Shown: positions 1,729 to 14,323 of the stretch, in pieces | Layout: each line of letters opens with the position of its first letter | Position numbering within the stretch: the first letter of the stretch is position 1 | DNA from: Synergistaceae bacterium | GTDB taxonomy: Bacteria; Synergistota; Synergistia; Synergistales; Aminobacteriaceae | Reading direction: 5' to 3' | NCBI GenBank assembly: GCA_017427625.1 | Contig: JAFRSL010000012.1 | Span: 1-14,323, forward strand | Length of the DNA: 14,323 bases | Translations under genes and position numbers: made by a program | Notes under the pieces: model-generated | What the model was told of the DNA's origin: nothing | Seen by the model: only the letters and a program-made list of their open reading frames with translations | Database searches by the model: none

Positions 1729-1734
1729 CCCCTT

Positions 1735-2202
1735 TCAAAGTGAAAGACCCGCAACAGCCGCCGCGAGTGCATCAGCAGTGTCATCGGGTCTTGGTATTTC
1801 ATCGAGTGTGAGAATATCCCGTATCCTTGTCTGTACTGTATGCTTGTCGGCCTTAGTGCTTCCGCAGACAGCCCGCTTTATGACCGTAGGAGTGAGTTCG
1901 GTTACGGGAAGATTATTCTGCGCGATGAGGAGCATTATTACCCCTCGTGCCTGATAGACATATTCGGCGGTCTTTACGTTTTTGCCGAAGAATAGACGCT
2001 CAATCGACACGAAATCAGGACGTATCACTCCTATTTTCCCATTCACGTCAGAATAAATCTTCATGATTCGTTCCGAGAAACTCATTGACGGGCTTGTCTC
2101 AATACAGCCGTAACAGACCGGCAGAAGCCCCGCATCAGACTGCGCTACAGCACCATAGCCCACACGAGCGAGGCCGGGATCTATTCCCAGACAAACACGC
2201 AA
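1735..2202 (-). CDS. ruvC: Crossover junction endodeoxyribonuclease RuvC
   Basis: RuvC resolves Holliday junctions by paired nicks, working with the RuvAB branch-migration motor in the cytoplasm. The 155-residue product has normal family length. The four acidic catalytic positions are visible: D8 in GIDPG, E68 in SIERLFF, and D141 and D144 in the C-terminal DDTADALAAA motif. The loop FFGKNVKTAEYVYQARG is also typical. Translation starts at TTG (2202-2200), directly after the TAG stop of yebC. No upstream in-frame ATG fits without entering yebC, so coupling with yebC is likely. The yebC-ruvC pairing is common in bacteria. ruvA and ruvB, often next in line, are not present between this gene and queA. 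Confidence 0.95.
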   Translation of the reverse strand: MRVCLGIDPGLARVGYGAVAQSDAGLLPVCYGCIETSPSMSFSERIMKIYSDVNGKIGVIRPDFVSIERLFFGKNVKTAEYVYQARGVIMLLIAQNNLPVTELTPTVIKRAVCGSTKADKHTVQTRIRDILTLDEIPRPDDTADALAAAVAGLSL

Positions 2203-2958
2203 CTATTCGTCCTCAATCTGTGATGCCACCTCGTCAGGAATGTCAAAGTTCGAGTAAACATTCTGCACATCATCGTGTTCTTCGAGAGCATCAACAAGGC
2301 GCAAGACTTTCCTTGCCGAATCGGGGTCTGAGACTTCAACGGGAGTCTTCGCAATCATTGAGACTTCCGCGTTTTCGACGACATATTTCGCGTCTTCAAG
2401 TGCCTTCTGCAATGTGTCAAGGTCTGACGGCTCGCAGTAGAGCGTGAAGCCCTCATCGTTTGCCTCCATGTCCGACATTCCAGAGTCGAGTCCGAGAGTC
2501 ATGAGTTCGTCCTCGTCGATGTTCTTTCCTTTGACCTCAATGACACCTTTGCGGTCGAACATCCACGCTACCGAGCCTTCACTGCCCATCTGCCCGCCGT
2601 TTCTTGCGAGGAGAGCGCGGATTTCGGGGGTAGTACGGTTTCTGTTGTCGGTCATGACGTTTACGAGGACTGCAATTCCTGAAGGCCCGATGACTTCGTA
2701 GGTCAGCTCGTCATATGAGATGTCGCCGAGTTCGCCTGTCCCGCGTTTTATGGCGCGTGTAATGTTGTCGTTGGGAACGCTGACGGCTTTTGCGCGCTCA
2801 ATGGCTGTCTTGAGACGCATATTCATGGCCGGGTCTCCGCCGCCGTCTTTTGCCGCGATGATGATTGCGCGGACTAACTTCTGGAAGAGGTTGCCCCTCT
2901 TTGCGTCCTGTGCTGCTTTGCGATGCTTAATGTTTGCCCATTTTGAATGTCCTGACAT
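2203..2958 (-). CDS. yebC: YebC/PmpR (TACO1) family protein
   Basis: A 251-residue member of the YebC family, recognised by its near-invariant N-terminus (MSGHSKWANIKHRKAAQDAK) and by the acidic C-terminal domains (VYSNFDIPDE near the end). Family members have been described as transcriptional regulators (PmpR). The mitochondrial relative TACO1 and more recent bacterial work point to a ribosome-linked role in translating difficult sequences, so the molecular role here should be left open. The ATG is preceded by a good Shine-Dalgarno site, AGGAGTGATAAC. The gene follows nadE by 20 bases and abuts ruvC. Length and motifs look intact. Confidence 0.95.
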   Translation of the reverse strand: MSGHSKWANIKHRKAAQDAKRGNLFQKLVRAIIIAAKDGGGDPAMNMRLKTAIERAKAVSVPNDNITRAIKRGTGELGDISYDELTYEVIGPSGIAVLVNVMTDNRNRTTPEIRALLARNGGQMGSEGSVAWMFDRKGVIEVKGKNIDEDELMTLGLDSGMSDMEANDEGFTLYCEPSDLDTLQKALEDAKYVVENAEVSMIAKTPVEVSDPDSARKVLRLVDALEEHDDVQNVYSNFDIPDEVASQIEDE

Positions 2959-2978
2959 GTTATCACTCCTGAATAGTA

Positions 2979-3692
2979 TTATGGTCTGAAGATTGGAATC
3001 GGCTTGCGTTTGTGTTCACTTCTGCGGCGCATGACGTCAATTCGTTCTTTCGCCGAAAGGTCATCAATTTTCCCTGACGCTAAATATTCGTCGAGAACGT
3101 CATACGTGAAACCCATATCGCCCTCATCTGTCTGTCCGTCAACGAGCCCTGCGCTTGGAGCTTTCGTGATGATCCGTTCGGGAACACCGAGAATTTTCGC
3201 CATCGCACGAATATCACGCTTCAGGAAGCTGGCCAGCGGCATCAAGTCCGAACCAGAGTCGCCGTATTTCGTGAAGTATCCTGTCTCGTACTCCGAACGG
3301 TTGCTAGTCCCGCAAACTAAGAGCCTGTTGCTCTGACCGAGTGCATAGAGTGTAACCATTCTGAGACGTGCTTTCATGTTTGAGCTTACGAGGGGACTCA
3401 CTTCAACGCCCAACGACGCACACATTGAGTCATAGGCAGCCGAAAGGTCAACGCGGGTGTATTTAACGTCAAGAGTCTCGGCAAGAAGTTTAGCGTCCGC
3501 CTCATCGTTAGGGTTGCTGTGGCATGGCATGATTACTCCGAGTACGCCGTCATGGCCCAATGCTTCACGACCCAGAGCCGCAAGGACTGAAGAGTCAATT
3601 CCGCCGGAGAGACCGAGAATTATTCCTGATGCTCCGGCTTTCTTGACCTCATCGGACAGCCATTGTTCACACTTAATTACAATGTCGCGCAA
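2979..3692 (-). CDS. nadE: NH3-dependent NAD+ synthetase (short form)
   Basis: This enzyme converts deamido-NAD (nicotinic acid adenine dinucleotide) to NAD+ using ATP and ammonia, the last step of NAD biosynthesis. The 237-residue protein has the ATP-pyrophosphatase P-loop SGGIDSS at 29-35, then NMKARLRM (105-112), GTSNRSE (128-134), KYGDSGSDLMPL (142-153) and PSAGLVDGQTDEGDMG (179-194), all family signatures. There is no N-terminal nitrilase/glutaminase domain, so free ammonia is the likely nitrogen source. The start is TTG at 3692-3690, with AGAGAGGA about nine bases upstream; I see no suitable ATG. It is the first gene of the minus-strand operon leading to queA and has a likely promoter at 3737-3765. 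Confidence 0.94.
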   Translation of the reverse strand: MRDIVIKCEQWLSDEVKKAGASGIILGLSGGIDSSVLAALGREALGHDGVLGVIMPCHSNPNDEADAKLLAETLDVKYTRVDLSAAYDSMCASLGVEVSPLVSSNMKARLRMVTLYALGQSNRLLVCGTSNRSEYETGYFTKYGDSGSDLMPLASFLKRDIRAMAKILGVPERIITKAPSAGLVDGQTDEGDMGFTYDVLDEYLASGKIDDLSAKERIDVMRRRSEHKRKPIPIFRP

Positions 3693-3736
3693 GTCTTTGT
3701 ATCCTCTCTAAAAAGTTATGAATAAAATATTCTGAT

Positions 3737-3765
3737 ATTATACACTCAAGGCAGACGGACAAAAA
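3737..3765 (-). promoter_or_regulatory. Likely promoter of the nadE operon
   Basis: On the minus strand a perfect -10 hexamer TATAAT lies at 3742-3737, about 45 bases before the nadE TTG. The -35 side is weak: TTTTTG at 17-bp spacing (3765-3760), or TTGTCC at 14 bp. The -35 region shares bases with the T-run of the upstream gene's terminator, so termination and initiation are packed together. Confidence 0.5.
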
Positions 3766-3794
3766 ATTCTCCTCCGTAAAACTTAACGGGGGAG
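3761..3794 (-). terminator. Intrinsic terminator of the zinc-ribbon/tail-anchored unit
   Basis: Read on the minus strand, CTCCCCCGT (3794-3786) pairs with ACGGAGGAG (3777-3769) across an 8-base loop. The stem has nine pairs, one of them G-U. It is followed by a run of six T (3766-3761). It sits 20 bases after the stop of the 344-residue gene. Confidence 0.85.
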
Positions 3795-3814
3795 ATTTTC
3801 ATATTCTGGAAATT

Positions 3815-4849
3815 CTACAGGAAGAAGTACCGTATCACGAAGAGCAGTGCAACCAGCGCAACCCCCAGCAGTCCGAAGAAGAACAAATCCCCCAAGAACG
3901 ATGCACCCTGCTTGGGCTGAGCCTGACCCTCCTGCTCTTTGACGCGAATCTTGATGTCTTTGGTGATTGCTACGTAGCCGCGTATCTCATCGCTTATCTT
4001 AACGTAGAGAAATTTCTTCCCCTGCGTCTCCCTTATCTCGTCAACAGGGAAAAGTGGCTCAATGTTATTCTCCTCAAGATACTTGGTAACCAGTGCGCTA
4101 GTACCTTCACCCTCAATCTGAACGCCGATAATATCTCCCGGCGCAATCTCAGATGAGGCTTTACCCCTAACAGGATCAACCATAGGATTGCACTTTATGA
4201 TCGTCCCCTCGAAGTTACCCTCCTTCTTTGCTTCCTCACGCTCACGTTCTTCACGCTCGGCCTTCTCCTTCTCTTCCTTCTCTCTCTGTATTCTTGCCTG
4301 CTCTTCAGGAGACGGAGGGAGAGGCTTGATGATTTTCGCGCGTTCAAGTTCATGTCGCGCTACAGGTTCGGCTTCGGTTGACGCTGTGAAAACACACTGT
4401 GCTGTCGCCTCAAAGGTACGGCGGTACATGCTTTCAAGCTGTCGGATTTTCACCTTCGTGTAGTTCTCGAAGAGCTTCTTCTTTTCCTCGACCGTAAGAA
4501 TTTCCTTGAGGTCAGCCTGCAGCTTCTCGCCCCAATCCTTGTCGAGAGGCCCCATTGACGGAAGGCTCTTGACGAAATTCCGCCAGTCCTTTCCGACCTC
4601 AGGAATCTGTCCGTTAGCGTAAGGTTTTGCGAGCCAGAATATCTGGAACACCGTACGTCCTGTCTTGCCCTCAAAGATAACGCAGAATCCTCCGCCCATG
4701 TCCCCGCGCGATGGGGTGAATGTCGACTTTATCGCGAGAAATTCCGGGTCATCATGCTTCTTGATGGGTTCAGCAGGTGGAGTCTCGTTGTTCTTTGGAG
4801 CCTCTGTGAGTTTCTTTACGTCGTTTACGCTTAAAAGTTCGTCCGGCAT
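3815..4849 (-). CDS. Unknown coiled-coil protein with a C-terminal membrane anchor
   Basis: I do not recognise this family. From the ATG at 4849-4847 it is 344 residues. That start is chosen because AAGGTGAG, a good ribosome-binding site overlapping the stop of the zinc-ribbon gene, sits eight bases before it. A TTG at 4888 gives 13 more residues but lacks a convincing site and would overlap the upstream gene. Visible parts: a polar N-terminus rich in P and K (about 15-35), a mixed globular region (about 35-165) with aromatic FQIFWLAKPY, a strongly charged E/K/R coiled coil (about 181-211), a second small domain (about 215-305) and one hydrophobic segment at about 321-342 ending the protein. 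This predicts a cytosolic body tethered by its tail, with no signal peptide. It is co-transcribed with the zinc-ribbon gene and followed by a terminator. Confidence 0.8.
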   Translation of the reverse strand: MPDELLSVNDVKKLTEAPKNNETPPAEPIKKHDDPEFLAIKSTFTPSRGDMGGGFCVIFEGKTGRTVFQIFWLAKPYANGQIPEVGKDWRNFVKSLPSMGPLDKDWGEKLQADLKEILTVEEKKKLFENYTKVKIRQLESMYRRTFEATAQCVFTASTEAEPVARHELERAKIIKPLPPSPEEQARIQREKEEKEKAEREEREREEAKKEGNFEGTIIKCNPMVDPVRGKASSEIAPGDIIGVQIEGEGTSALVTKYLEENNIEPLFPVDEIRETQGKKFLYVKISDEIRGYVAITKDIKIRVKEQEGQAQPKQGASFLGDLFFFGLLGVALVALLFVIRYFFL

Positions 4850-4857
4850 GATCTCAC

Positions 4858-5016
4858 TCACCTTGCCGAATAGCTCTTGGAGCTCCAAGATTTACCGCGC
4901 GGAATCTCTCCCGATACAAGCTCAAGACAGCGGCTTCTGCATTCCGGGCACTTTCTGTCCGATTTCGAGTCGCTCTCAAATTCCTTCTTGCACTCAAGGC
5001 ATCTGAATTTGGCCAT
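4858..5016 (-). CDS. Small zinc-ribbon protein (52 residues)
   Basis: A 52-residue cytosolic protein with a rubredoxin-like/FmdB-like zinc ribbon: C6-x2-C9 and C23-x2-C26, with an extra C30, within 30 N-terminal residues, followed by a basic Ser-rich tail. The ATG at 5016 is chosen because a consensus promoter (5069-5097) lies inside the longer possible reading frame that starts at 5097, so that longer frame would not be fully transcribed. A GGAGGA site lies about 12 bases upstream, a somewhat long spacing. Its stop lies eight bases before the ATG of the tail-anchored protein gene, whose ribosome-binding site it contains. Function is unknown; the arrangement suggests the two products act together. 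Confidence 0.75.
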   Translation of the reverse strand: MAKFRCLECKKEFESDSKSDRKCPECRSRCLELVSGEIPRGKSWSSKSYSAR

Positions 5017-5068
5017 AATGTTAATGAGTCCTCCGTGAAAGTCTAAAATCTGACTGTGATTGCCAAGA

Positions 5069-5097
5069 ATTATAGACCGTAAAATATTTCTGTGCAA
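5069..5097 (-). promoter_or_regulatory. Sigma70-type promoter of the zinc-ribbon gene
   Basis: On the minus strand, TTGCAC (5097-5092) and a perfect TATAAT (5074-5069) are separated by exactly 17 bases. Transcription would begin about 45 bases before the ATG at 5016. This is among the clearest promoters in the window and is divergent from the promoter of the CAP-protein gene. Confidence 0.8.
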
Positions 5098-5158
5098 TCG
5101 CGTTTAGCCCAGAGCAAAATCCGAAAGATTTACGCAATTTTTTTCGGGCAATATTCAT

Positions 5159-5202
5159 TATAATAGTGGCAAAATTCAAAGAGACAAAATTTTTGATGGA
5201 GG
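5159..5202 (+). promoter_or_regulatory. -10 box and ribosome-binding site of the CAP-protein gene
   Basis: A perfect TATAAT lies at 5159-5164. The bases at the expected -35 position are only T-rich, so an activator or an alternative element may be needed. GGAGG at 5198-5202 lies nine bases before the ATG at 5212. Confidence 0.55.
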
Positions 5203-5211
5203 CTGTTCCTT

Positions 5212-7236
5212 ATGAGACTGAAAAATTTTCCGGCATTTCTCCTCGTTATCCTCATTGCCTCAACGCCCGTTCACGCTTCGGGTATTTACGACACCGATCC
5301 ATCGTTCTCACCTTACAATGCGGGGACTGTCAGAAGTGATATTCTTTACGACGCTCTTGAAGAACTGAACTACATTCGCCGCCTCATAGGTGTACCCTCA
5401 AATGTAACGCTCGACTCCGAAATGACCCGAAAGGCACAGCATGGTGCAGTCCTTCTCGATGCCATCAACACGCTCACTCATACTCCCGGCAAACCTTCGG
5501 ACATGGCCGAGTCATTCTACGAGCTTGGATATGATGCCACGACTCACGGAAACATAGCGTGGTCTTCGGGCGGAATTACCATCAACTACAGCAACAAGAT
5601 GTACATGAACGACTCCGACAGCTCCAACATTTCGGCGGTCGGTCATCGTAGGTGGCTCATGAACCCCAGAATGAAGCGCACAGGCTTCGGTATAAGTGAG
5701 CGCAGGGGCTTTGCTGTAACCTACGTTATTGACGAGGACGAAATGAGCTCATCATGGCCGATCCCGGACGAATATATTACGTGGCCCGTGAACAAGCACC
5801 CTCACCCTTTGACGTACTTCGACGCAGGGACAGCATGGTCGGTTACGCTGAACGATGAAATTTTCGAGACTGCGAGCACAGCTTCAACAAGCGTGAGACT
5901 CACACGAACTTCGGACGGAAGGACTTGGAATTTCGGCGGAGGTAGCAGCGACGGATACTTCACGATCAATGCGCAGGGTTATGCCATAGACCAGTGCATA
6001 ATATTCCGGCCTGATAATGTTTCAGGATACTCGAACGGCGAGACTTGGAACGTCTACATCTCCGGCCTGAAACGCAAAGACGGGACTTCAGGCAGCGTCT
6101 CATACAGCGTAACATTCACGGGCGAGTCAACGGGCTACGAGGAGGACATACCAGGAGGCGGTACAGAGAGTAATGACGGGGACTCAAGCGGAGGATGCGC
6201 GGCAGTGCCTGGGATTTTGTGGGCGGTAATGTGCCTTGTGTTCCTGCGGAAGAAGCCGGGACGTTCCGCGCTTGTGGTACTGCTGGCGTTGTCGGCCTCA
6301 TGTTATGCCGGGACGTATGACCCTTACATCGTGAAGCCGTCATTCTCACCTTACAGGGCAGGGACGGTGAAGCATGAGATTCTTGCTGAGGCACTCGCTG
6401 AGGTCAACTATGTGCGCTGGCTCGCCGGAGTCCCCAACAACGTAACTCTCAATGATGAATATACACGTCTTGCACAGCACGGAGCTGTTCTGCTTGACGC
6501 TAACGATGAACTCACCCACACGCCGGAGAAGCCCTACGACATGCCGCAGGATTTCTACGAGGCCGGGTATTACGCGACATCTCACGGCAACATAGCCTAC
6601 TGGAAACAACGCAGAGGACTCAAGTCATGGGGAGCTATGACTCTCAGCAAGTCAACGCAGATGTACATGGAGGACACTGACGGCCACAATGTAGGTGCGA
6701 TCGGACATAGAAGGTGGCTTCTGAATCCACGCCTCAAGCAGACAGGCTTCGGGATAAGCACGAGACTCGGCTATGCGGTAACGTATGTTGTTGAGGAGTC
6801 CCCAATCAAGAATAAGGATAAGCTCACAAAGGCGGAATACGCGCAATATCTCGACTGGCTGAAGTGGCCGATAGCTGACGAGTTCATCTCATGGCCGTCC
6901 TCGAAGAACCATCACCCATTGAGCTGGTTCGAGGCAAAGACAGCTTGGTCGGTAACTCTAAACCGAAACGTCTTCAAACCTTGCAACCCCGACAACGTGA
7001 GCGTGAGCATGACCCGCCTCAATGATGGGAAGGTCTGGAATTTCGGGAAGGCCGGCGATGACGGATACTTCGTTGTTGCTCCGGACAATGTGGCTTATGA
7101 CGAGTGCCTTATATTCTGCCCCGATGACATAAAGAGTTACGGTAACGGAGAATATTGGCGCGTCGAAGTTCGCGGACTCACAAGGAAGGACGGAAGCGAA
7201 GGAAGTTTTACATATAATGTGATTTTTACGCTATAA
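5212..7236 (+). CDS. Secreted protein with two CAP (SCP/PR-1-like) domains, an apparent fusion of two precursors
   Basis: A 674-residue exported protein made of two similar halves. Residues 1-23 form a Sec signal peptide. Half one (about 24-304) and half two (about 370-674) each start with an SFSPY-AGTV segment, then a CAP domain with LTHTP (H90, H436) and GHRRWLMNPRMKRTGFGIS or its near copy (H145, H499), then a beta-rich tail domain ending in a GLKRKDG/GLTRKDG element. Between them lie S325-SGGC329, a hydrophobic stretch (about 333-345), RKKPGR (346-351), and a second hydrophobic stretch (353-363) ending SCYAG. This looks like a C-terminal sorting signal of the Synergistota type joined in frame to a second signal peptide. 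An internal ATG at 6229 (M340) could in principle start the second half alone. CAP proteins are extracellular and diverse; no substrate can be named. The gene precedes the mgl operon by 66 bases with no terminator seen. Confidence 0.85.
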   Translation: MRLKNFPAFLLVILIASTPVHASGIYDTDPSFSPYNAGTVRSDILYDALEELNYIRRLIGVPSNVTLDSEMTRKAQHGAVLLDAINTLTHTPGKPSDMAESFYELGYDATTHGNIAWSSGGITINYSNKMYMNDSDSSNISAVGHRRWLMNPRMKRTGFGISERRGFAVTYVIDEDEMSSSWPIPDEYITWPVNKHPHPLTYFDAGTAWSVTLNDEIFETASTASTSVRLTRTSDGRTWNFGGGSSDGYFTINAQGYAIDQCIIFRPDNVSGYSNGETWNVYISGLKRKDGTSGSVSYSVTFTGESTGYEEDIPGGGTESNDGDSSGGCAAVPGILWAVMCLVFLRKKPGRSALVVLLALSASCYAGTYDPYIVKPSFSPYRAGTVKHEILAEALAEVNYVRWLAGVPNNVTLNDEYTRLAQHGAVLLDANDELTHTPEKPYDMPQDFYEAGYYATSHGNIAYWKQRRGLKSWGAMTLSKSTQMYMEDTDGHNVGAIGHRRWLLNPRLKQTGFGISTRLGYAVTYVVEESPIKNKDKLTKAEYAQYLDWLKWPIADEFISWPSSKNHHPLSWFEAKTAWSVTLNRNVFKPCNPDNVSVSMTRLNDGKVWNFGKAGDDGYFVVAPDNVAYDECLIFCPDDIKSYGNGEYWRVEVRGLTRKDGSEGSFTYNVIFTL

Positions 7237-7237
7237 T
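7207..7237 (+). promoter_or_regulatory. Possible promoter of the mgl operon
   Basis: TTTACA (7207-7212) and TATAAT (7232-7237, across the stop codon of the CAP gene) are separated by 19 bases, longer than ideal. They lie about 65 bases before the mglB start. The rest of the 66-base gap holds no hairpin I can support. Confidence 0.35.
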
Positions 7238-7302
7238 TTAGAAATCCCATGCTTAAATTCTCAGGCATTGGAGAAATATATTTTTCAGGAGGTTATTTTC
7301 CT

Positions 7303-8319
7303 ATGAAGAAGCATGTTGTAATTTTCGCAGCAGCTATTCTCGCAGTATCGGCAGTCGCAGCATTTGCCGCAACAGACGCACTCGTCGGAGCTTGCATCTA
7401 CAAGTTCGATGACACGTTCATGACCGGTGTCCGTAACGCAATGCGCGCAGAGATGGACAAGCAGGGCGGAGAGCTTGAGATCGTCGACAGCCAGAACCGT
7501 CAGCCAACCCAGAACGATCAGGTTGATGCCTACATCTCCAAAGGCGCGAATGCCCTCATCGTCAACCCCGTTGACCGCACAGCAGCAGAGCCTCTCATGC
7601 AGAAGGCAAAGGCTGAAGGTCTCCCCATCGTCTTCGTGAACCGTGAGCCTTACGCCGAAGTCATGAACGCCTACGACAAGATTTGGTACGTTGGCGCAAA
7701 GGCAGAGGAGTCCGGCACGCAGTCAGGACAGATCATCGCTGACTACTTCAAGGCGAACCCCAAAGCTGACCGCAACGGCGACGGAAAGATCCAGTACATC
7801 ATGATCCGCGGCGAGCAGGGACATCAGGACGCAACGCTCCGCACAGAGTACTCAACGAAGGCCATGAAGGACGCAGGATTTGAGATCGTCGAACTCGGCA
7901 ACGACACAGCGAACTGGGACAAGGTTCAGGCAACTGACAAGATGAAGGGCTTCATCTCAGCAGTCGGAATCGACAACATCGAGGCAGTCCTCGCCAACAA
8001 TGACGACATGGCTCTCGGCGCAATCGAGGCTCTCAAAGCTGAAGGCTACAACATGGGCGACCCAGCGAAGTACATCCCCGTCGTAGGCGTTGACGCAACA
8101 GCACCGGCACTCGAGGCAATGAGCAAGGGTGAGATGCTTGGAACAGTCCTCAATGACGCTGACAACCAGGGCTTCGCAGCAGTGAGAGTCGCAGTTGTCG
8201 CAGCCGATGACAAGCCCGTAACAGAGGAGTCAATCGGCTACAAGATCACTGACGGCAAATACGTCTGGATACCCTACAGACCCGTTACCGTCGAGAACTA
8301 CAAAGAGTTCATGAAATAG
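7303..8319 (+). CDS. mglB: Galactose/glucose-binding protein MglB, first copy (periplasmic)
   Basis: This is the periplasmic binding protein of an Mgl-type hexose ABC importer, 338 residues. The ATG at 7303 is preferred over one 54 bases upstream because AGGAGG (7287-7292) lies ten bases before it and a clean Sec signal peptide follows (cut after AFA22). All sugar contacts known for E. coli MglB have counterparts: D37, F39, N113, H174, D176, R180, W205, N233, D264 and N284. The calcium loop is also present (DRNGDGKIQ at 156-164, with E227). D-galactose or D-glucose is therefore the expected ligand. Cleavage by signal peptidase I predicts a soluble periplasmic protein. The many C-ending codons (AAC, GAC, ATC) suggest high expression. 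It is followed by a stem-loop and a second, roughly 60% identical copy (estimated by eye). Confidence 0.93.
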   Translation: MKKHVVIFAAAILAVSAVAAFAATDALVGACIYKFDDTFMTGVRNAMRAEMDKQGGELEIVDSQNRQPTQNDQVDAYISKGANALIVNPVDRTAAEPLMQKAKAEGLPIVFVNREPYAEVMNAYDKIWYVGAKAEESGTQSGQIIADYFKANPKADRNGDGKIQYIMIRGEQGHQDATLRTEYSTKAMKDAGFEIVELGNDTANWDKVQATDKMKGFISAVGIDNIEAVLANNDDMALGAIEALKAEGYNMGDPAKYIPVVGVDATAPALEAMSKGEMLGTVLNDADNQGFAAVRVAVVAADDKPVTEESIGYKITDGKYVWIPYRPVTVENYKEFMK

Positions 8320-8338
8320 CAGGATCAATCCACTCATG

Positions 8339-8376
8339 CCCCCGTTGAAATTCCGGCGGGGGTTTCCCTTATTGTT
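8339..8376 (+). terminator. Stem-loop between the two mglB copies (partial terminator or 3' end stabiliser)
   Basis: CCCCCG (8339-8344) pairs with CGGGGG (8357-8362) across a 12-base loop, followed by TTTCCCTTATTGTT. The stem is short but all G-C, and the T-run is broken, so termination is probably partial. Such a structure after a binding-protein gene usually leaves more transcript for it than for the membrane parts. Confidence 0.55.
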
Positions 8377-8392
8377 ATGGAGGTGAATTTTT

Positions 8393-9376
8393 TTGCGTAA
8401 AGTTTTTATTACAGCGTTGATACTCGTGCTTGCCATAGCTTCGTGTTCATTTGCAGACGGAGTGAAGATAGGTGCGGGCATTTACAGGTTCAACGATGCT
8501 TTCATGCTGAGGTTCAGGAACGCAATGAGCGCGGAGAGTGAGAAGGCCGGAGCTGAGATTGATATTGCTGACGGAAGAGATGACCAGCCAACTCAGGATG
8601 CTCAGATTGACGAGTTCATAGCAGGCGGCGTTAACGTCCTCATCGTGAATCTTGTTGACCGCATGGCCGCTCAGGGAACAATCGACAAGGCAAAATCTGC
8701 CGACATTCCCGTTGTTTTCATTAACCGTGAACCCCCGCTTGAAGTCCTCAACACCTACGTCAAAGCCTATTATGTCGGGGCAAAAGCTGAGGAGTCCGGA
8801 ATATTCTCAGGCCAGCTCATAGTCGATTACTTCAAGTCCCACCCGGAAGCAGACAAGAATCATGACGGAAAACTCCAGTTCGTACTTCTCAAGGGTCAGA
8901 ACGGGCATCAGGATATGATTCTGCGCTCAAAATATTCCGTTGAGACTATCAGGGACGCGGGCATTGAGCCTGTCGAACTTGCAAGCGCGATCGCAAACTG
9001 GGACAAGCTCGAAGCCATGAAGATAATGAACGCGTTTATCATGTCAATCGGCCCTGAGAACATTGAGGCAGTAATCGCGAACAATGACGAGATGGCTCTG
9101 GGTGCTGTCGAGGCTCTGAAGGCTCAGGACTACAACAAGGGCGATCCATCAATGTACATTCCTGTCGTTGGTGTTGACGCGAATGCTTCGGCACTTGAGG
9201 CGATGGACAAAGGCGAAATGCTTGGGACTGTCCTCAATGATGCTGACGGTCAGGGAAGCGCGGCTGTGAAACTCGCGGTTTCGCTTGCACAGGGCAAGGA
9301 TGTTAGCGGTGAGGTTACAGACGGGAAATATATCTGGGTGCCTTACCAGAAAGTTACGAGAGGTGAGAAACAGTGA
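8393..9376 (+). CDS. mglB: Galactose/glucose-binding protein MglB, second copy (possible lipoprotein)
   Basis: A 327-residue paralogue of the preceding gene. The start is TTG at 8393, fixed by GGAGGTGA six bases upstream (8379-8386); the nearby ATG at 8377 is out of frame. The ligand residues are kept: D35, F37, N111, H172, D174, R178, W203, N231, D262 and N282. So is the calcium loop DKNHDGKLQ (154-162, with E225). Galactose/glucose-type binding is expected, though second-shell changes (for example N34 for D) could shift preference. The signal peptide contains I15-A-S-C18, which fits a lipobox, but SFA21 could instead be cut by signal peptidase I, so anchoring is unsettled. The last bases overlap the mglA start (GTGA), giving tight coupling to the ATPase. 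Confidence 0.92.
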   Translation: MRKVFITALILVLAIASCSFADGVKIGAGIYRFNDAFMLRFRNAMSAESEKAGAEIDIADGRDDQPTQDAQIDEFIAGGVNVLIVNLVDRMAAQGTIDKAKSADIPVVFINREPPLEVLNTYVKAYYVGAKAEESGIFSGQLIVDYFKSHPEADKNHDGKLQFVLLKGQNGHQDMILRSKYSVETIRDAGIEPVELASAIANWDKLEAMKIMNAFIMSIGPENIEAVIANNDEMALGAVEALKAQDYNKGDPSMYIPVVGVDANASALEAMDKGEMLGTVLNDADGQGSAAVKLAVSLAQGKDVSGEVTDGKYIWVPYQKVTRGEKQ

Positions 9377-10908
9377 GCGAATATTTGCTTGAGATGAAGA
9401 ACATCACAAAGACATTCCCCGGCGTTAAGGCTCTCGACAACGTGAACCTCAACGTCCGAAAAGGTACAGTTCACGCTCTAATGGGCGAGAACGGTGCAGG
9501 GAAGTCAACCCTCATGAAATGCCTCTTTGGGATATACGAGCCTGACGGTGGAGAAATTTTCCTTGAGGGCAAGAAAGCATCAATACATTCAGCGCGCCAG
9601 GCAATGGATCAGGGAATCGCAATGGTTCATCAGGAGTTGCACCCGATAAGATTCCGCTCGGTCATGGAGAATGTCTACTTGGGGAGATTTCCGGGACACA
9701 TGGGAGTCGTTGACCACAAAGTAATGTACGAGAAGACTAAGGCACTCTTTGACGACTTGGAGCTTGACGTTGACCCGTTGGCGTTGGCGGGTGAACAGTC
9801 GGCGGCAATACTTCAGATGATGGAGATTGCTAGGGCTGTTGACATGAAGGCGAAAATCATAATCCTCGACGAGCCTACAAGCTCACTCTCTGACCGTGAA
9901 GTCGACCACCTTTTCAAGATAATCAACCGTCTTAGGGCGCAGGGTGTTGCGTTCGTCTACATTTCGCACAAGATGAAGGAAATCCTCGAAATTTCCGACG
10001 AGATTACTGTCATGCGTGACGGTACATATGTCGGGACATGGCCGGTAACAGACGAGAAGGGCGAGAAGCTAACGATCGACTTCATCATAAAGCAGATGGT
10101 TGGCCGCGAGATGACAAACCAGTTCCCGCCGAGAGAAGGCAAACCGTCAGACGATGTTGTGCTTAAGGTTGAGAACGTATGCTCCCCGTTGAAGAAGTCA
10201 TTCCAGAACGTCAGCTTTGAGCTTCACAAGCAGGAGATACTCGGAATTGGAGGACTCGTCGGCGCACAGAGGACGGAATTTGTCGAGGCACTCTTCGGAC
10301 TTCGTGGCATTGCTTCGGGTGAAATTCTCCTTAACGGCGCAAGGTACACCAACAAATCGCCGGGCTTCGCAAAATCACGCGGTCTCGCGCTTCTCACAGA
10401 AGAACGAAGGGCGACAGGAATCTTCGGGATACTTCCAATTCTTGAGAACACAGTCATCGCTAACCAGAGGAGTTACGCGCACTTTGGAGTCCTCAACGAC
10501 GGCAGAAGAAAGACCGATGCCGACGCGGAATGCAAGAAACTCAACGTTAAGACACCATCATTGAACACGCTGATACAGAATCTTTCGGGCGGAAACCAGC
10601 AGAAGGTTCTTATTGCAAGGTGGCTTCTTACGAACTCGGACATTCTCATTCTCGACGAGCCTACAAGGGGAATCGATGTCGGCGCAAAGTACGAGATTTA
10701 CAACATAATGCTCGAACAGATAGCGCAAGGGAAGTCGATAATCATGATCTCGTCGGAAATGCCGGAACTTATGGGAATGTCGGACAGAATCATGGTAATG
10801 TGCGAAGGAAGGGTAACGGGTTTCCTCAACAAAGGAGAATACTCGCAGGAAAAGATTATGGCGTTCGCAACACAGTTTGCGGGGCGCAAAGACAGCACAG
10901 CGGCATAA
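9373..10908 (+). CDS. mglA: Galactose/methyl galactoside import ATP-binding protein MglA
   Basis: A 511-residue double ATPase that powers the Mgl importer at the inner face of the membrane. It starts with GTG at 9373, overlapping the mglB stop, behind GAGGTGAG. Domain 1 has a Walker A (GENGAGKST, 38-46), Q87, Walker B (IILDEP, 163-168) and H199, but the signature is degenerate (QSAAI at 142-146 where LSxxQ is usual). Domain 2 has a canonical signature (LSGGN, 404-408) and Walker B (D428, E429). Its Walker A is degenerate (GLVGAQRT, 294-301), and S460 replaces the H-loop histidine. One composite site (Walker A1 with signature 2) is therefore intact and the other is not. The degenerate second Walker A is shared with E. 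coli MglA, and the whole chain aligns to MglA without gaps of note. Confidence 0.95.
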   Translation: MSEYLLEMKNITKTFPGVKALDNVNLNVRKGTVHALMGENGAGKSTLMKCLFGIYEPDGGEIFLEGKKASIHSARQAMDQGIAMVHQELHPIRFRSVMENVYLGRFPGHMGVVDHKVMYEKTKALFDDLELDVDPLALAGEQSAAILQMMEIARAVDMKAKIIILDEPTSSLSDREVDHLFKIINRLRAQGVAFVYISHKMKEILEISDEITVMRDGTYVGTWPVTDEKGEKLTIDFIIKQMVGREMTNQFPPREGKPSDDVVLKVENVCSPLKKSFQNVSFELHKQEILGIGGLVGAQRTEFVEALFGLRGIASGEILLNGARYTNKSPGFAKSRGLALLTEERRATGIFGILPILENTVIANQRSYAHFGVLNDGRRKTDADAECKKLNVKTPSLNTLIQNLSGGNQQKVLIARWLLTNSDILILDEPTRGIDVGAKYEIYNIMLEQIAQGKSIIMISSEMPELMGMSDRIMVMCEGRVTGFLNKGEYSQEKIMAFATQFAGRKDSTAA

Positions 10909-10929
10909 CAAGGAGGAGAAATATAAATC

Positions 10930-12153
10930 ATGGCGGAAACAAAATCACGTTCAAAGCGTCTGATGACAACGGGGGGAATAATCTTCCTCGTTCTCGGAAT
11001 AATACTCTACTTCGCAAAAGAGCCTATGGGTCTCAACCGAAAAATCTATGACCTTCCCATCTTCCTCATCATCATAGGACTCTGCTCTGCCATCAAGGGC
11101 TACATGGCGAAAGACAAGACAGAGGAAGAGGCCGCGCTTGCCGGAAAGACCTTCACGGAGTTTCTCACGAACAACGCGATATTGCTGGCAATGCTTGTGC
11201 TTGTCGTGGTGATTTGCATACTTCAGCCGAGATTCATGCAGATACGAGTTGCGCTCGACATTCTCACACAGTCGTCAACAAAGCTGATTATGGCGCTGGG
11301 AATATGCTTCGCGCTTCTCATCGCCGGTACTGACCTTTCAGCCGGACGAATGGTTGGACTTGCGGCGGTAATATCGGCCTCGATGATGCAGACTGCGACG
11401 TATGCCAACAGATTCTTCCCTGATCTTCCGCAGGTTGCAGTGTGGATTCCCATTGTTGCGGCGGTACTTGCGTGCATGGTCTGCGGTGCGCTTAACGGCT
11501 TTCTTGTGGCGAAGTACGAGATGCACCCATTCATTGCGACGCTTGCGACTCAGGTCATGATTTACGGAGCCTGCTCGCTTTACTTCGACATGCCTCCCAA
11601 CAACTCACAGCCAATCGGAGGAATCAGGCCGGACTTCGCGCAGATCGGACAGCTTAGGCTCTTCAACGGACTCTGGAAAGGCTTTCCGGGAATAAGCATC
11701 TTAATTCCCATCTCAATCGTAATCTGCATAGCGATCTGGTTCATACTGAACAAGACAGTCTTCGGCAAAAACGTCTACGCAATCGGCGGAAACAGAGAAG
11801 CAGCAGTTGTCGCGGGAATTAACGTTTTCCGCAACATCATGTTCATCTTCATTCTTGCCTCGTTCCTTTACGGCATCGCTGGAGTTCTTGAGGCAGCAAG
11901 GACGGCAGGAGCTACGAATAACTACGGCAATGGCTACGAGACAGACGCGATTGCGGCGTGTGTTGTCGGCGGCGTCTCAATGAGCGGCGGTATCGGAAAA
12001 GTCGGCGGAATCGTGATGGGTGTTTTGATATTCACGGTCATTCAGTACGGCTTGCAGTTCATCAACGTCTCGCCTATGTGGCAGCAGGTCATCAAGGGCG
12101 TAATCATCGCGGTTGCGGTTGCGATTGACCTCACGAAGTACCGAAGGAAGTAA
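10930..12153 (+). CDS. mglC: Galactose/methyl galactoside ABC transporter permease MglC, with an N-terminal extension
   Basis: The 407-residue integral membrane partner of MglA/MglB. From about residue 79 it follows E. coli MglC closely, with ILTQSS (111-116), GTDLSAGR (133-140), the FGKNVYAIGGNREAAVVAG cytoplasmic-loop motif, ATNNYG, DAIAACVVGGVSMSGG and the closing IKGVIIAVAVAID segment. It is about 70 residues longer than E. coli MglC. The added N-terminus has two more predicted membrane helices (about 14-30 and 41-58) and an acidic linker (KTEEEA). AAGGAGGAG lies 11 bases before the ATG. It is the last gene of the operon and is followed within 17 bases by an intrinsic terminator. Its last 19 codons resemble a remnant at 14042-14094, beyond the peptide cassette. 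Confidence 0.95.
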   Translation: MAETKSRSKRLMTTGGIIFLVLGIILYFAKEPMGLNRKIYDLPIFLIIIGLCSAIKGYMAKDKTEEEAALAGKTFTEFLTNNAILLAMLVLVVVICILQPRFMQIRVALDILTQSSTKLIMALGICFALLIAGTDLSAGRMVGLAAVISASMMQTATYANRFFPDLPQVAVWIPIVAAVLACMVCGALNGFLVAKYEMHPFIATLATQVMIYGACSLYFDMPPNNSQPIGGIRPDFAQIGQLRLFNGLWKGFPGISILIPISIVICIAIWFILNKTVFGKNVYAIGGNREAAVVAGINVFRNIMFIFILASFLYGIAGVLEAARTAGATNNYGNGYETDAIAACVVGGVSMSGGIGKVGGIVMGVLIFTVIQYGLQFINVSPMWQQVIKGVIIAVAVAIDLTKYRRK

Positions 12154-12169
12154 GACTAACGGAAATATG

Positions 12170-12202
12170 CCCTCTGTCGAAAATGGCAGGGGGTATTTTT
12201 GT
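12170..12202 (+). terminator. Intrinsic terminator of the mgl operon
   Basis: CCCTCTGTC (12170-12178) pairs with GGCAGGGGG (12185-12193) across a GAAAAT loop, giving nine pairs of which two are G-U. TATTTTTGT follows. It begins 16 bases after the mglC stop, and the next promoter starts only a few bases beyond the T-run. Confidence 0.85.
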
Positions 12203-12207
12203 ACCTC

Positions 12208-12238
12208 TTGACAAGACCCCCCCCCAATAGTGTAAAAT
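12208..12238 (+). promoter_or_regulatory. Promoter of the peptide cassette with a C9 tract in the spacer
   Basis: A perfect -35 TTGACA (12208-12213) and a -10 TAAAAT (12233-12238, five of six) are 19 bases apart. Nine consecutive C (12217-12225) lie in the spacer. The ideal spacing is 17, so loss of two C would tune the promoter up and gain would turn it down. Position and arrangement match promoters switched by slipped-strand repair of homopolymers in other bacteria; that this one switches is inference. Confidence 0.7.
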
Positions 12239-12246
12239 CTATTCAG

Positions 12247-12262
12247 ATTCAAAAAATTGAAT
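12247..12262 (+). promoter_or_regulatory. Inverted repeat just downstream of the cassette promoter, a possible operator
   Basis: ATTCAA (12247-12252) and TTGAAT (12257-12262) are perfect inverted copies around AAAA. The element covers roughly +2 to +17 of the expected transcript and lies 20 bases before the helix-turn-helix gene. That is a natural place for autoregulation. AT-rich sequence can produce such repeats by chance. Confidence 0.35.
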
Positions 12263-12282
12263 TTAAGAGGGAGTAGAGCAAT

Positions 12283-12537
12283 ATGGTCGATCCTATATTG
12301 GATAAACGCAGAGAGTTAGCGAGGAAAGTTGTGGACATGTATAAGACTCGGGAATATCGGCAGGAAGATATTTCTGAAGAGATGGGACTTCCCATATCTG
12401 TCGTTCGTAAGGTGTTACAGAATTACAACTACGAACGCACTAAATTGAAAACCAAAGATAATTTGTGTGGTGAGCAAAAATTGTTTTTGGGTGTGTGGTT
12501 TGACAAGATGGATTATTTGGACAAATATATCCAATGA
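12283..12537 (+). CDS. Small helix-turn-helix protein, putative regulator of the peptide locus
   Basis: An 84-residue, likely cytosolic protein. AAGAGGGAG (12265-12273) lies nine bases before the ATG. The N-terminal 25 residues are charged and helical. A helix-turn-helix of the sigma-region-4/Xre-like kind follows at about 26-46 (RQEDISEEMGLPISVVRKVL), where the pattern of Q/E, A/S, G and spaced hydrophobic residues fits DNA binding. The C-terminal 35 residues (a K-rich stretch, then WFDKMDYLDKY) match no family I know. It is the first gene after the C-tract promoter and precedes the peptide gene by 35 bases, so the likeliest role is control of this locus. A role in recognising the peptide cannot be excluded, because short helical proteins also serve as leader-binding partners in such loci. 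Confidence 0.75.
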   Translation: MVDPILDKRRELARKVVDMYKTREYRQEDISEEMGLPISVVRKVLQNYNYERTKLKTKDNLCGEQKLFLGVWFDKMDYLDKYIQ

Positions 12538-12572
12538 TCTCTGTCTTAAGCTGATGTGAGGAGGTGATATTT

Positions 12573-12740
12573 ATGAGCCTTATGCTAGCAGAGGATGAAA
12601 AAATCATAACTTTGGAAAACATTCAGTGTTCCATTGATTTGACAGATATGATGACTTCTGGTGTGTATATGTGCGATTGCACAGGATGCGCTAACGGCTG
12701 CTTTGAGTTTTGCAATGACGGTGCCGGACCTACGGATTAA
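12573..12740 (+). CDS. Six-cysteine precursor peptide (55 residues), putative radical SAM-modified RiPP
   Basis: A small gene with the best ribosome-binding site in the window: AGGAGGTGA (12559-12567), five bases before the ATG. The 55-residue peptide has an acidic, helical-looking leader (about 1-30: LMLAEDEK, then IITLENIQ, then a DLTDMMTSG end) and a Cys-rich C-terminal part. The cysteines are C19, C34, C36, C39, C43 and C47, spaced x14, x1, x2, x3 and x3, and the chain ends GAGPTD. There is no Sec signal peptide. Next to a SPASM-type radical SAM enzyme, this is the layout of thioether RiPPs (sactipeptides and ranthipeptides). Six cysteines in a short peptide recall SCIFF-type peptides, and CxxxCxxxC recalls the CXXX-repeat group, but the spacing is not one I can assign. 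TSG30 or nearby is a reasonable guess for the leader/core border. Confidence 0.8.
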   Translation: MSLMLAEDEKIITLENIQCSIDLTDMMTSGVYMCDCTGCANGCFEFCNDGAGPTD

Positions 12741-12768
12741 TGAGGCTGTTGTCTGCGTATTTGTTGAA

Positions 12769-12799
12769 AAAGCCTCTATTTTCCGAGTAGGGGCTTTGT
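12769..12799 (+). terminator. Attenuator-like hairpin between precursor peptide and maturase genes
   Basis: AAAGCCTCTA-type arms: AAAGCCTC with TA (12769-12778) pairs with TAGGGGCTTT's first ten bases (12788-12797) across a 9-base loop, with one G-U pair. A short T-rich tail follows. GAGGCT at 12742-12747 can pair instead with AGCCTC (12771-12776), so two folds exclude each other. Partial termination here would give more precursor than enzyme. Confidence 0.5.
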
Positions 12800-12832
12800 A
12801 TAAAAAAGAAATGAGAAGAGTGATTTATTCTA

Positions 12833-14002
12833 ATGTCTGACGTATTAAAAGACGGATTTTCAACTAGTTACAGCCCAACACTGTGTGTTACACACCGATG
12901 TAATTTGTCTTGTATATATTGCTATCAAAAAATGAAAGATTCCAGTTCTATGACGTTTGACATAGCGAAGAAATGTATCGATGATATTTTTGCTAATATT
13001 CCTGAAGGAACAAAAATCATAGAAATATCTTTTATTGGAGGAGAACCCCTTTTAGAAACGGCTCTGATAAAGGCAGTTTTTGAATACACTTTGGATAAAT
13101 ATTCAGACGAGCGTTTACATTTTTTTGCCACTACGAACGGCGTTGCTCTGTCTGAAGAAGACAAGCGTTGGTTTTCTGAGCACAAAAACAAATTTATTTT
13201 AGGTTTGAGTCTTGATGGTACAAAAGAAACGCATGATTTCAACAGGTCAAATTCTTTCAATAAAATAGACATTGATTATTTTGCGAAGACATGGCCTGAA
13301 CAAGGACCTAAAATGACCATTTCTAAAAAAACGCTTCACAGCTTGGCTAAAGACATCATGTTCATTCACAGTTTGGGCTTTACGACGATAAACGGTGTAA
13401 ATTTTGCTGAAGGCGATTTTGATTGGGGTGATAAAGACGAGTTGTTAATCTTATCGCAGCAACTGCGTTTGTTACTGGAATATTACACTGAACATTTTGA
13501 AAGAAAATTAGATCAGATGTTTGGTAAGCATATTGAGTTTTGCGCGAGTAATGATAAAAGAAAAGCCAGATCATGCGGAATTGGTAAAAACTCAACTTTT
13601 TATGATGTAGATGGTAAAAAATACCCATGTAGTTTTATTACGCCAATGACATTTTCAGCGCAGGAAATAGAAAACATAAAGAAAACAGATTTCGAAAATG
13701 TTGATGAATTTATAGACATACAATGCTTTAATGAGTGTTATTTATTTCCTGTATGCGGAACGTGCTCGGGAGCTAATTATCTTGTTAATCATTCCTTTTC
13801 ACAGCGGATAAAATCCCGTTGCTCAATGATGAAACTAATCGCGCTCTATGTTGCAGAACTACACACTAGAAGAATTATTGAGCATAGAGATTTATATACT
13901 GATGATAATCAGCTTTATTATTTAATAGATGCCATTAAAGGTATCAAGAAGCATTTTTATTCTGAATTTTGTGATATATTACTTCATTCACAGAAAGCCT
14001 AG
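12833..14002 (+). CDS. Radical SAM/SPASM-domain peptide maturase
   Basis: A 389-residue cytosolic enzyme expected to install cross-links in the adjacent six-cysteine peptide. The radical SAM cluster motif is C23-x3-C27-x2-C30 (CNLSCIYC), followed by GGEP at 69-72 and a TTNG strand at 100-103. A SPASM domain follows: C248, C266 (after G261-x4), C298-x3-C302-x5-C308-x2-C311 and C330. These seven cysteines can bind two auxiliary 4Fe-4S clusters, with the inner spacings slightly shifted from the anaerobic sulfatase-maturase pattern. Only 22 residues precede the first cysteine, so there is no N-terminal RRE (leader-binding) domain. The helical tail (about 331-389) is unassigned. The ribosome-binding site is modest (AAGAGTGAT, 8 bases). 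Base composition is AT-rich like the peptide gene and unlike mglC. Confidence 0.9.
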   Translation: MSDVLKDGFSTSYSPTLCVTHRCNLSCIYCYQKMKDSSSMTFDIAKKCIDDIFANIPEGTKIIEISFIGGEPLLETALIKAVFEYTLDKYSDERLHFFATTNGVALSEEDKRWFSEHKNKFILGLSLDGTKETHDFNRSNSFNKIDIDYFAKTWPEQGPKMTISKKTLHSLAKDIMFIHSLGFTTINGVNFAEGDFDWGDKDELLILSQQLRLLLEYYTEHFERKLDQMFGKHIEFCASNDKRKARSCGIGKNSTFYDVDGKKYPCSFITPMTFSAQEIENIKKTDFENVDEFIDIQCFNECYLFPVCGTCSGANYLVNHSFSQRIKSRCSMMKLIALYVAELHTRRIIEHRDLYTDDNQLYYLIDAIKGIKKHFYSEFCDILLHSQKA

Positions 14003-14006
14003 TAGC

Positions 14007-14015
14007 AAGTAAGAC
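14007..14015 (+). repeat. Short direct repeat of the sequence around the mglC stop
   Basis: AAGTAAGAC here repeats 12148-12156, which spans the mglC stop codon. The two copies bracket the terminator, promoter and three cassette genes. Nine bases could match by chance, but the position on both sides of the AT-rich block makes an insertion footprint possible. Confidence 0.3.
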
Positions 14016-14041
14016 GATTATATTTATGAGCATAAATTCTA

Positions 14042-14094
14042 GGGGCGTAATCATAGCGGTTGCGATTGACCGCAGGAAGTACCGCAAGAAGTAA
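14042..14094 (+). pseudogene. Remnant of an mglC 3' end
   Basis: Translated in the frame ending with TAA at 14092-14094, this reads GVIIAVAIDRRKYRKK. The intact mglC at 12096-12153 ends GVIIAVAVAIDLTKYRRK. The DNA matches over GGGCGTAATCAT, GCGGTTGCGATTGACC and the AAGTACCG region, with a six-base deletion and a few substitutions. No start or upstream mglC sequence accompanies it: the match stops sharply at about 14041, against AT-rich cassette DNA. It is followed by a strong terminator, like a normal operon end. Either an earlier mglC end was displaced by insertion of the cassette, or a second copy of the transporter operon was mostly lost. Confidence 0.75.
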
Positions 14095-14117
14095 TCAGCA
14101 GAGTGTGAGAAATGAAG

Positions 14118-14149
14118 TCCCCCGGTTGTGAGAGGCCGGGGGATTTTTT
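14118..14149 (+). terminator. Strong intrinsic terminator
   Basis: TCCCCCGG (14118-14125) pairs with CCGGGGGA (14136-14143) across a 10-base loop, followed by six T (14144-14149). It ends transcription from the cassette and was probably the terminator of the mglC copy now seen as a remnant. Confidence 0.9.
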
Positions 14150-14213
14150 GTGCGCTAACGTCTGTTTTTCCTGATGGCGAGGATAAGTGATGCCAGTACA
14201 TATTCCGGCGGCG

Positions 14214-14286
14214 AAGGCCACTGTGCACGGAAAGTTAAGGCCAGCGTATCGGAGTTTTAAGGCCACCATCACGCAATAGAAGGCCA
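14214..14286 (+). repeat. Four AAGGCCA repeats at 21-23 base spacing, possible insertion-sequence end
   Basis: AAGGCCA begins at 14214, 14237, 14259 and 14280. Two units share a longer form, CGGA followed by a T-rich stretch and TTAAGGCCA. The period is about two helical turns. Multiple short terminal repeats of this kind are typical of IS21-family ends, whose transposase genes would then lie to the right of the window. I see no convincing gene in 14150-14323: frames on both strands are short or run through the terminator. The family assignment is inference. Confidence 0.45.
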
Positions 14287-14305
14287 TCTCATATAATGGA
14301 CAAGG

Positions 14306-14321
14306 CACACCAGCAGGTGTG
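14306..14321. repeat. Perfect inverted repeat at the right edge
   Basis: CACACC (14306-14311) and GGTGTG (14316-14321) are inverted copies around AGCA. A TATAAT at 14292-14297 lies just upstream on the plus strand, so this could be an operator or leader hairpin of a gene beyond the window. Confidence 0.3.
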
Positions 14322-14323
14322 AC

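Follow-up and report, generated by a model that had tools for sequence, protein, structure and literature searches.

The window analysed here (the whole stretch of positions 1 to 14,323, forward strand, of contig JAFRSL010000012.1 of the Synergistaceae bacterium assembly GCA_017427625.1) carries a gene pair encoding a 55-residue cysteine-rich peptide and an adjoining radical S-adenosylmethionine (SAM) enzyme. The cassette is real, and it is a short-core form of an already known type of ribosomally synthesised and post-translationally modified peptide (RiPP) rather than an isolated class, since its enzyme belongs to a clade inside a family whose other branches mostly adjoin precursors with CXXX repeats. 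It is proposed, with moderate confidence, that the cassette has been acquired, that its enzyme, which lacks a RiPP recognition element (RRE), cross-links a core with five cysteines, that the product serves as a signal or carrier, and that expression is gated stochastically by a poly-C tract in the promoter. The three open reading frames (ORFs) that a sequence-only reading of this stretch had delineated are all present, as is the ribosome-binding site ahead of the precursor ATG. The features of the cassette are as follows.

12208-12213, + strand: −35 element TTGACA, read from the sequence
12217-12225, + strand: poly-C tract C9, a candidate phase-variation tract, inside the spacer between the −35 and −10 elements
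12233-12238, + strand: −10 element TAAAAT, behind a 19-nt spacer
12283-12537, + strand: ORF of a helix-turn-helix (HTH)-like protein, 84 aa, the first gene 3′ of the promoter
12558-12567, + strand: ribosome-binding site of the precursor gene, GAGGAGGTGA, read from the sequence upstream of the peptide ATG
12573-12740, + strand: precursor ORF, 55 aa, with cysteines at 19, 34, 36, 39, 43 and 47
12573-12662, + strand: precursor leader, residues 1-30, with L14 and Q18 invariant in 17 peptides
12663-12740, + strand: precursor core, residues 31-55 and stop, VYMCDCTGCANGCFEFCNDGAGPTD, with five conserved cysteines
12769-12797, + strand: RNA hairpin between the precursor and enzyme genes, a 13-pair stem with no T run
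12833-14002, + strand: radical SAM/SPASM-type peptide maturase, 389 aa, with no N-terminal RRE seen

Recurrence of the precursor–enzyme pair

The presence of a RiPP precursor beside a SPASM-type radical SAM maturase, proposed by the sequence-only reading together with a search for the pair elsewhere, is well supported: the search was made, and both the pair and its cysteine spacing recur. In an Oscillospiraceae metagenome-assembled genome (MAG; locus L006, enzyme identity 67%) and in a member of the Lachnospiraceae (L007, 64%), a 55-aa ORF with the same core lies just upstream of the enzyme gene. A profile search built from four peptides yielded 20 database proteins, including those of L006 (P0123) and L007 (P0122). 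The core Y-x-CDCTGC-[SA]-N-x-CFE-x-C-x-DG-x-G is common to all 22 rows of the peptide alignment, whose invariant columns include C34, D35, C36, T37, G38, C39, N41, C43, F44, E45, C47, D49, G50 and G52. Among 17 full-length peptides (P0125, P0137, P0138 and P0139 are omitted as having other lengths, P0137 being P0136 with a longer start, and the L006 peptide as identical to P0123), the mean pairwise identity is 84% in the core (residues 31-55) versus 42% in the leader (residues 1-30).

Comparisons of the core DNA between the window, L006 and L007 place the differences largely at the third codon position (19/30, 15/24 and 12/19), and the codon differences are mostly synonymous (12 versus 7, 11 versus 5 and 8 versus 5). 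This bias and the 20 database peptides indicate that the peptide ORF is more than a chance reading frame. The description of the peptide as a six-cysteine one does not hold as a conserved trait: Cys19 occurs in 2 of the 17 peptides, so that it was rejected as a core residue, and the conserved cysteines are the last five only. The leader contains the motif [MIV]xxLxx[ILVMF][QKR], represented in the window by I11, L14 and I17-Q18. All 17 short-core peptides contain this motif, which was chosen after looking at the sequences (shuffled mean 0.5), and among 29 other family loci, 20 have it in their precursors (shuffled mean 0.7); it replaced a first motif that fitted 19/29 other loci but 2/17 short-core peptides.

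The linkage of the two genes is also seen in protein databases, where some enzymes bear odd N-terminal extensions that mostly fit the precursor core when decoded in another frame. Such an extension places precursor and enzyme on the same DNA. The protein search found 483 enzyme relatives, of which 120 were listed and looked at; the fit was tested in those with the anchor motif and a long extension, 7 of the 120 lacking the former and 92 the latter. The extension fits the precursor core in 12 of the 13 testable enzymes at 62-68% identity, and 0/100 shuffles of each reach the fit; in more distant family members, it fits in 0 of 8. The decoded runs cover 22 positions in four enzymes, 15 in five, 12 in two and 9 in one. 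The fitting enzymes include that of L006 itself (P0007), which leaves 11 further database enzymes. The enzyme frame of L006 has no start codon between the precursor stop and the conserved enzyme start, which indicates that the genes overlap there.

The hairpin between the two genes of the window has a z-score of −3.8 (−2.6 in a longer stretch), and a terminator-like hairpin with a z-score of −4.0 lies in the same gap of L007. Perhaps it holds the level of the enzyme below that of the precursor. No Rfam match was found in 11900-14323.

The enzyme and its known relatives

The CxxxCxxC motif (C23, C27 and C30) and the seven later cysteines noted in the sequence-only reading are indeed present and invariant in 33 aligned enzymes, where the invariant cysteines are C23, C27, C30, C237, C248, C266, C298, C302, C308, C311 and C330. 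The Pfam Radical_SAM family is matched with 45 bits (cut-off 29.5). The AlphaFold model (predicted local distance difference test, pLDDT, 88.3) has no domain N-terminal to the barrel, and in the PDB the folds of CteB, anSMEcpe and ChlB match it best, with template modelling (TM) scores of 0.55-0.67 by model length. The early remark that an RRE is missing agrees with this model and with the Pfam and NCBIfam matches listed, among which none is of the RRE type. The CxxxCxxC motif, the auxiliary-cluster cysteines and the SPASM-type fold are those of SPASM radical SAM peptide maturases in the broad sense. Judged by sequence and model, the enzyme is a SPASM-type peptide maturase without an RRE, of a subfamily unnamed in NCBIfam.

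A scan of genome contigs for the enzyme confirmed 151 stretches, and 80 loci were kept, L006 and L007 being the nearest two. Relatives at 46-54% identity stand mostly beside CXXX-repeat precursors, in Lachnospiraceae, Treponema, one Gastranaerophilales MAG and Synergistaceae. The phylogenetic tree placed 15 labelled short-core enzymes (a label presumed for P0002 and P0023 from a longest contig equal in length to that of P0128 and P0136) on one side of a branch with support 100/98, with nine unlabelled rows among them. The label CXXX_core was given to all 35 other loci, including L012, L019, L030, L031, L034 and L041, which have no clear repeats, and L044 and L052, whose precursors were not inspected. 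In L031 and L034, zinc-ribbon-like ORFs ending in CDCAVGECDCDGSIWN lie directly upstream of the family enzyme and perhaps represent another type of precursor.

The suggestion of a new subtype stands in part. No NCBIfam equivalog cut-off is passed by the window enzyme, seven relatives, L008, L010, L038, L042, L044 or L052, whereas the Anaerococcus enzyme L053, as a positive control, passes that of TIGR04115 (490.4 bits, cut-off 350); besides, the string CDCTGC was found in a single paper, by its title on Salmonella single-nucleotide polymorphism primers, in a search that left most subscription papers outside, so that the absence is weak. On the other side, the enzyme is one clade in a larger family whose other members mostly adjoin CXXX-repeat peptides. 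The x14 cysteine spacing and the HTH gene, brought forward as further signs of novelty, are not conserved.

By bit score, the best NCBIfam match of the window enzyme is NF047865, the maturase PapB of the ranthipeptide freyrasin, which is likewise a SPASM radical SAM enzyme adjoining a Cys-rich precursor. The score is 136.7 bits (129-150 in seven relatives), far from the equivalog cut-off of 340. The CXXX-repeat maturase TIGR04115 comes second with 119.7 bits (cut-off 350). Its targets TIGR04114 and TIGR04117 match the precursors of other branches weakly (one of six at the TIGR04114 cut-off), and the window precursor differs in its short non-repeat core CxCxxCxxxCxxxC; with two CxxxC steps and a CxC, it falls outside the CXXX-repeat precursors. 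In NCBIfam, neither the window peptide nor P0124 has a match, and P0126 has one unrelated weak match. The SCIFF maturases (CteB and Tte1186; TIGR03974) include the closest solved fold, CteB (5why/5wgg), and also act beside short Cys-rich precursors. The window enzyme reaches 84.3 bits against their cut-off of 425, has no N-terminal RRE, and shows a C-x3-C-x5-C-x2-C spacing of SPASM cysteines instead of the C-x2-C-x5-C-x3-C of CteB. No literature on TIGR04115 was found, a weak absence with the same coverage. Searches covering few subscription papers found nothing on radical SAM RiPPs of Synergistaceae and nothing joining the terms phase-variable, ribosomally synthesized and radical SAM; among the titles shown for phase variation and for ranthipeptides or PapB, none concerns Synergistetes.

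Proposed mechanism and role of the product

The conservation of the leader suggests that the enzyme, having no RRE, binds it through the motif I11..L14..I17-Q18. With SAM and its auxiliary iron–sulfur clusters, the enzyme would then, by analogy with its family, form thioethers from some of the cysteines 34, 36, 39, 43 and 47, the candidate partners being the nearby invariant residues D35, T37, N41, E45 and D49. The leader may be removed by an unlinked protease, none having been seen. The product would be a compact, nearly invariant cross-linked peptide acting as a signal or as an intracellular carrier or cofactor-like peptide. Such a role is most likely, in preference to that of a diversifying bacteriocin, as a core identity of 84% against 42% in the leader is unusual for bacteriocins. 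A core constant across phyla with a drifting leader points to a fixed partner, and the cassette offers a small, tractable system for studying roles of conserved cross-linked peptides other than killing.

Several observations weigh against this picture. The peptide rows were found through the similarity of the core, and its invariance is therefore partly selected for. For most database enzymes, the linkage to a precursor comes from frame decoding, without the DNA having been seen, and the extension of P0024 is the one of the 13 that does not fit. The Pfam SPASM match has 12.6 bits and lies below its cut-off of 21.5. Furthermore, the window core does not have the Cys-X3-Asp repeats described for the natural PapB substrate (PMC9413430), and none of the 17 peptides has Asp or Glu four residues after a core cysteine (positions 38, 40, 43, 47 and 51). 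According to the same paper, PapB accepts Cys-Xn-Asp with n of 0-6 in vitro, so that a chemistry similar to that of PapB is possible despite the absent motif, while a review describes PapB as strict (PMC8172795).

Cys-rich peptides with SPASM enzymes include the bacteriocins thuricin CD and ruminococcin C, and the distribution of the cassette is sporadic, as would suit a sactibiotic or ranthipeptide-type bacteriocin exported by a general transporter. Peptides under arms-race selection are not expected to keep an invariant core, yet here the core hardly changes from Synergistota to Firmicutes, and the variation lies in the leader. Moreover, the impression of the sequence-only reading that no exporter, protease or immunity gene is visible was confirmed among the window ORFs, read by eye, and the same holds for nine scanned ORFs near L006 and L007, four of which have no family match. 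A bacteriocin is consequently considered unlikely. The possibility that the core simply binds a metal, with the enzyme making few or no thioethers, is less probable still: CxC and CxxC spacings resemble metal ligands, and none of the five cysteines varies in the peptide alignment, as expected of ligands, but the invariance of D35, T37, N41, F44, E45, D49, G50 and G52 and the adjoining SPASM-type enzyme fit a modified peptide better.

It is also rather improbable that the HTH protein is a regulator of the cassette or a stand-alone recognition element. Its gene lies in the same operon and ends 35 nt ahead of the precursor start codon, and the sequence-only reading counted it as a member of the unit. 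As part of a conserved unit, it is ruled out by the other loci and genomes: neither L006 and L007 nor the other four genus cassettes show the gene next to the precursor–enzyme pair. A search for the protein through Synergistota at E ≤ 1e-4 was positive in its own genome and in none of the 184 others. At E ≤ 0.001, the L006 and L007 genomes and those of the four genus-mates gave no match either, in a search that had no positive there. In Pfam, it gives a weak Sigma70_r4 match (E 0.0046, below cut-off), and none of the Pfam and NCBIfam matches listed is to PqqD/RRE. In L004 and L005, the place of the HTH gene, as first gene of the cassette, is taken by similar 96-aa ORFs upstream of CXXX-like precursors.

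Promoter tract and genomic setting

In the window, the C9 tract lies within the 19-nt spacer, an arrangement rare by chance; a promoter scan, with its spacing limit of 16-18 nt, missed this promoter. Two other cassettes of the genus, L002 and L004, have G11 and G12 in 19-nt spacers, and L005 has an interrupted G4-N-G tract, so that, of the other four genus cassettes, two and possibly a third have a promoter with a C/G tract. The N in the L005 tract is only suggestive of a variation in tract length within the population. Outside the genus, up to 1500 nt ahead of the enzyme gene were examined in 34 loci, and none has a C/G run of at least 7 there. The pattern TTGAC..G9+..TANNNT gave 27 rows in 16 of 43 genus genomes (0 with the reversed control) and its C9+ counterpart 57 rows in 20 of 43 (reversed control 1), overlapping rows being included in both counts. 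The C pattern, the one run outside the genus, was absent from 38 other family genomes (19 genera). In 131 kb of genus loci, C/G runs of 7 nt occur twice and runs of 8 or 9 nt do not occur; single runs of 10, 11 and 12 nt are present, and each of these three lies in a promoter-like spacer.

As determined from 57 fetched loci rather than from all pattern rows, with the −10 element chosen by script, 52 distinct promoters have tracts of 9-15 and spacers that are 19 or 20 nt long in 33 cases, lengths of 13 to 22 nt also being seen. An ORF of at least 45 aa starts within 260 nt in 51 of the 52, a count made without a chance comparison. Ten downstream genes were scanned and encode two glycosyltransferases, one GTPase, one metallo-beta-lactamase-fold protein and six proteins without a Pfam match. 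Behind the poly-G promoters of L220, L225, L231 and L235 lie secreted-looking long ORFs (484-491 aa within the fetched stretch); those of L220, L231 and L235 start with EPRL or EPHL after a signal-like segment and that of L225 opens similarly, and the three of the four that were scanned have no Pfam match.

These sigma-70-like promoters, whose spacers hold C/G tracts of 9-15, are, by their sequence, a candidate phase-variable regulon of the genus. Slippage in the C9 tract would change the spacing of the −35 and −10 elements, now 19 nt, and lead to stochastic expression. The architecture resembles the phase-variable promoters of the Neisseria class 1 protein, presumably PorA, and of Opc, with their variable −35/−10 spacing or poly-cytidine in the promoter. 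The likeness concerns promoter architecture alone: here the organisms are Synergistaceae, and the tracts precede RiPP cassettes as well as the genes of many proteins that are secreted-looking, membrane-like or unknown. Only as a tentative proposal, then, is the peptide regarded as a phase-variable RiPP, that is, a nearly invariant cross-linked five-Cys peptide common to Synergistota and Firmicutes that is switched at random by poly-C slippage. Its promoter would then belong to a genus-wide set of such switches, which control genes for glycosyltransferases and for secreted-looking, membrane-like and unknown proteins. If switching is true, spacer-type phase variation extends to a genus of Synergistaceae, and the resulting cell-to-cell heterogeneity could be tested from existing reads.

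Against switching, it can be said that L003 has no tract, that each genome is represented by one consensus sequence in which the number of tract bases may stem from the assembly, and that the clustering of spacers at 19-20 nt despite varying tracts may reflect a fixed geometry. In the window's own genome, 2 of 9 C9+ tracts fit the promoter pattern and the other seven do not. The clustered spacers and the seven tracts outside the pattern would suit an ordinary constitutive promoter of the genus, in which 19-20 nt is the normal spacing, or a tract length produced by assembly. Such an explanation is doubtful, though not negligible, given that long C/G runs are otherwise rare in the 131 kb of genus loci and that the spacers do range beyond 19-20 nt. 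The same architecture is, moreover, a known switch for the Neisseria class 1 protein and Opc, as indicated by titles in the reference list of PMC5084427.

The cassette lies after the end of a sugar ABC-transporter permease gene, which we take to be mglC-like. The features at its borders are as follows.

10930-12153, + strand: ORF of the sugar ABC-transporter permease
12167-12196, + strand: intrinsic terminator of the permease gene, a 13-pair stem and T run, with a similar hairpin in genome G034 (L173)
14043-14094, + strand: second, diverged permease 3′ end (repeats D1/D2, 90-92%), six bases fewer

It is proposed that the cassette was acquired horizontally, as suggested by its low GC content and the duplicated permease end. 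Between the copies of the permease 3′ end (12096-12153 and 14043-14094), each followed by its own hairpin-like stretch, the GC content falls from about 0.50 to 0.32-0.40, and 14043-14094 is the probable right edge of the acquired segment. No integrase and no exact junction were found at the duplication. Among the 43 genus genomes, 39 contain a match to the permease at E ≤ 1e-100; in G034, the permease is 97% identical, and its 3′ end and terminator resemble those of the window. The genes downstream of the permease differ from one member of the genus to another.

At E ≤ 1e-30, five of the 81 family genomes contain the enzyme; each of them belongs to the genus of the window, and the other four cassettes (L002-L005) have CXXX-like precursors. 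In L005, the enzyme frame is interrupted by a stop; in L004, one TAG was counted in the genome search and a separate reading gives a 385-aa frame. Searches for the short-core precursor gave 2/185, 2/397 and 1/51 genomes, one in each case being an already known genome. The additional weak matches G059 and G389 were dropped, having no intact precursor-like ORF and no CxxxCxxC ORF there, and the window's genome, with one weak match set aside, is the only one with this precursor among 185 Synergistota genomes. The upstream neighbours of L007 are an IS21-type pair. In a search for viral or plasmid carriage of the precursor, 19 stretches matched the pattern and none was confirmed, and a second search gave no match. 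Another 80 viral loci are distant matches, with at most 32% identity.

Elsewhere in the window, 5212-7236 is occupied by a single 674-aa ORF with two similar halves, which presumably resemble a CAP/SCP-like secreted domain.

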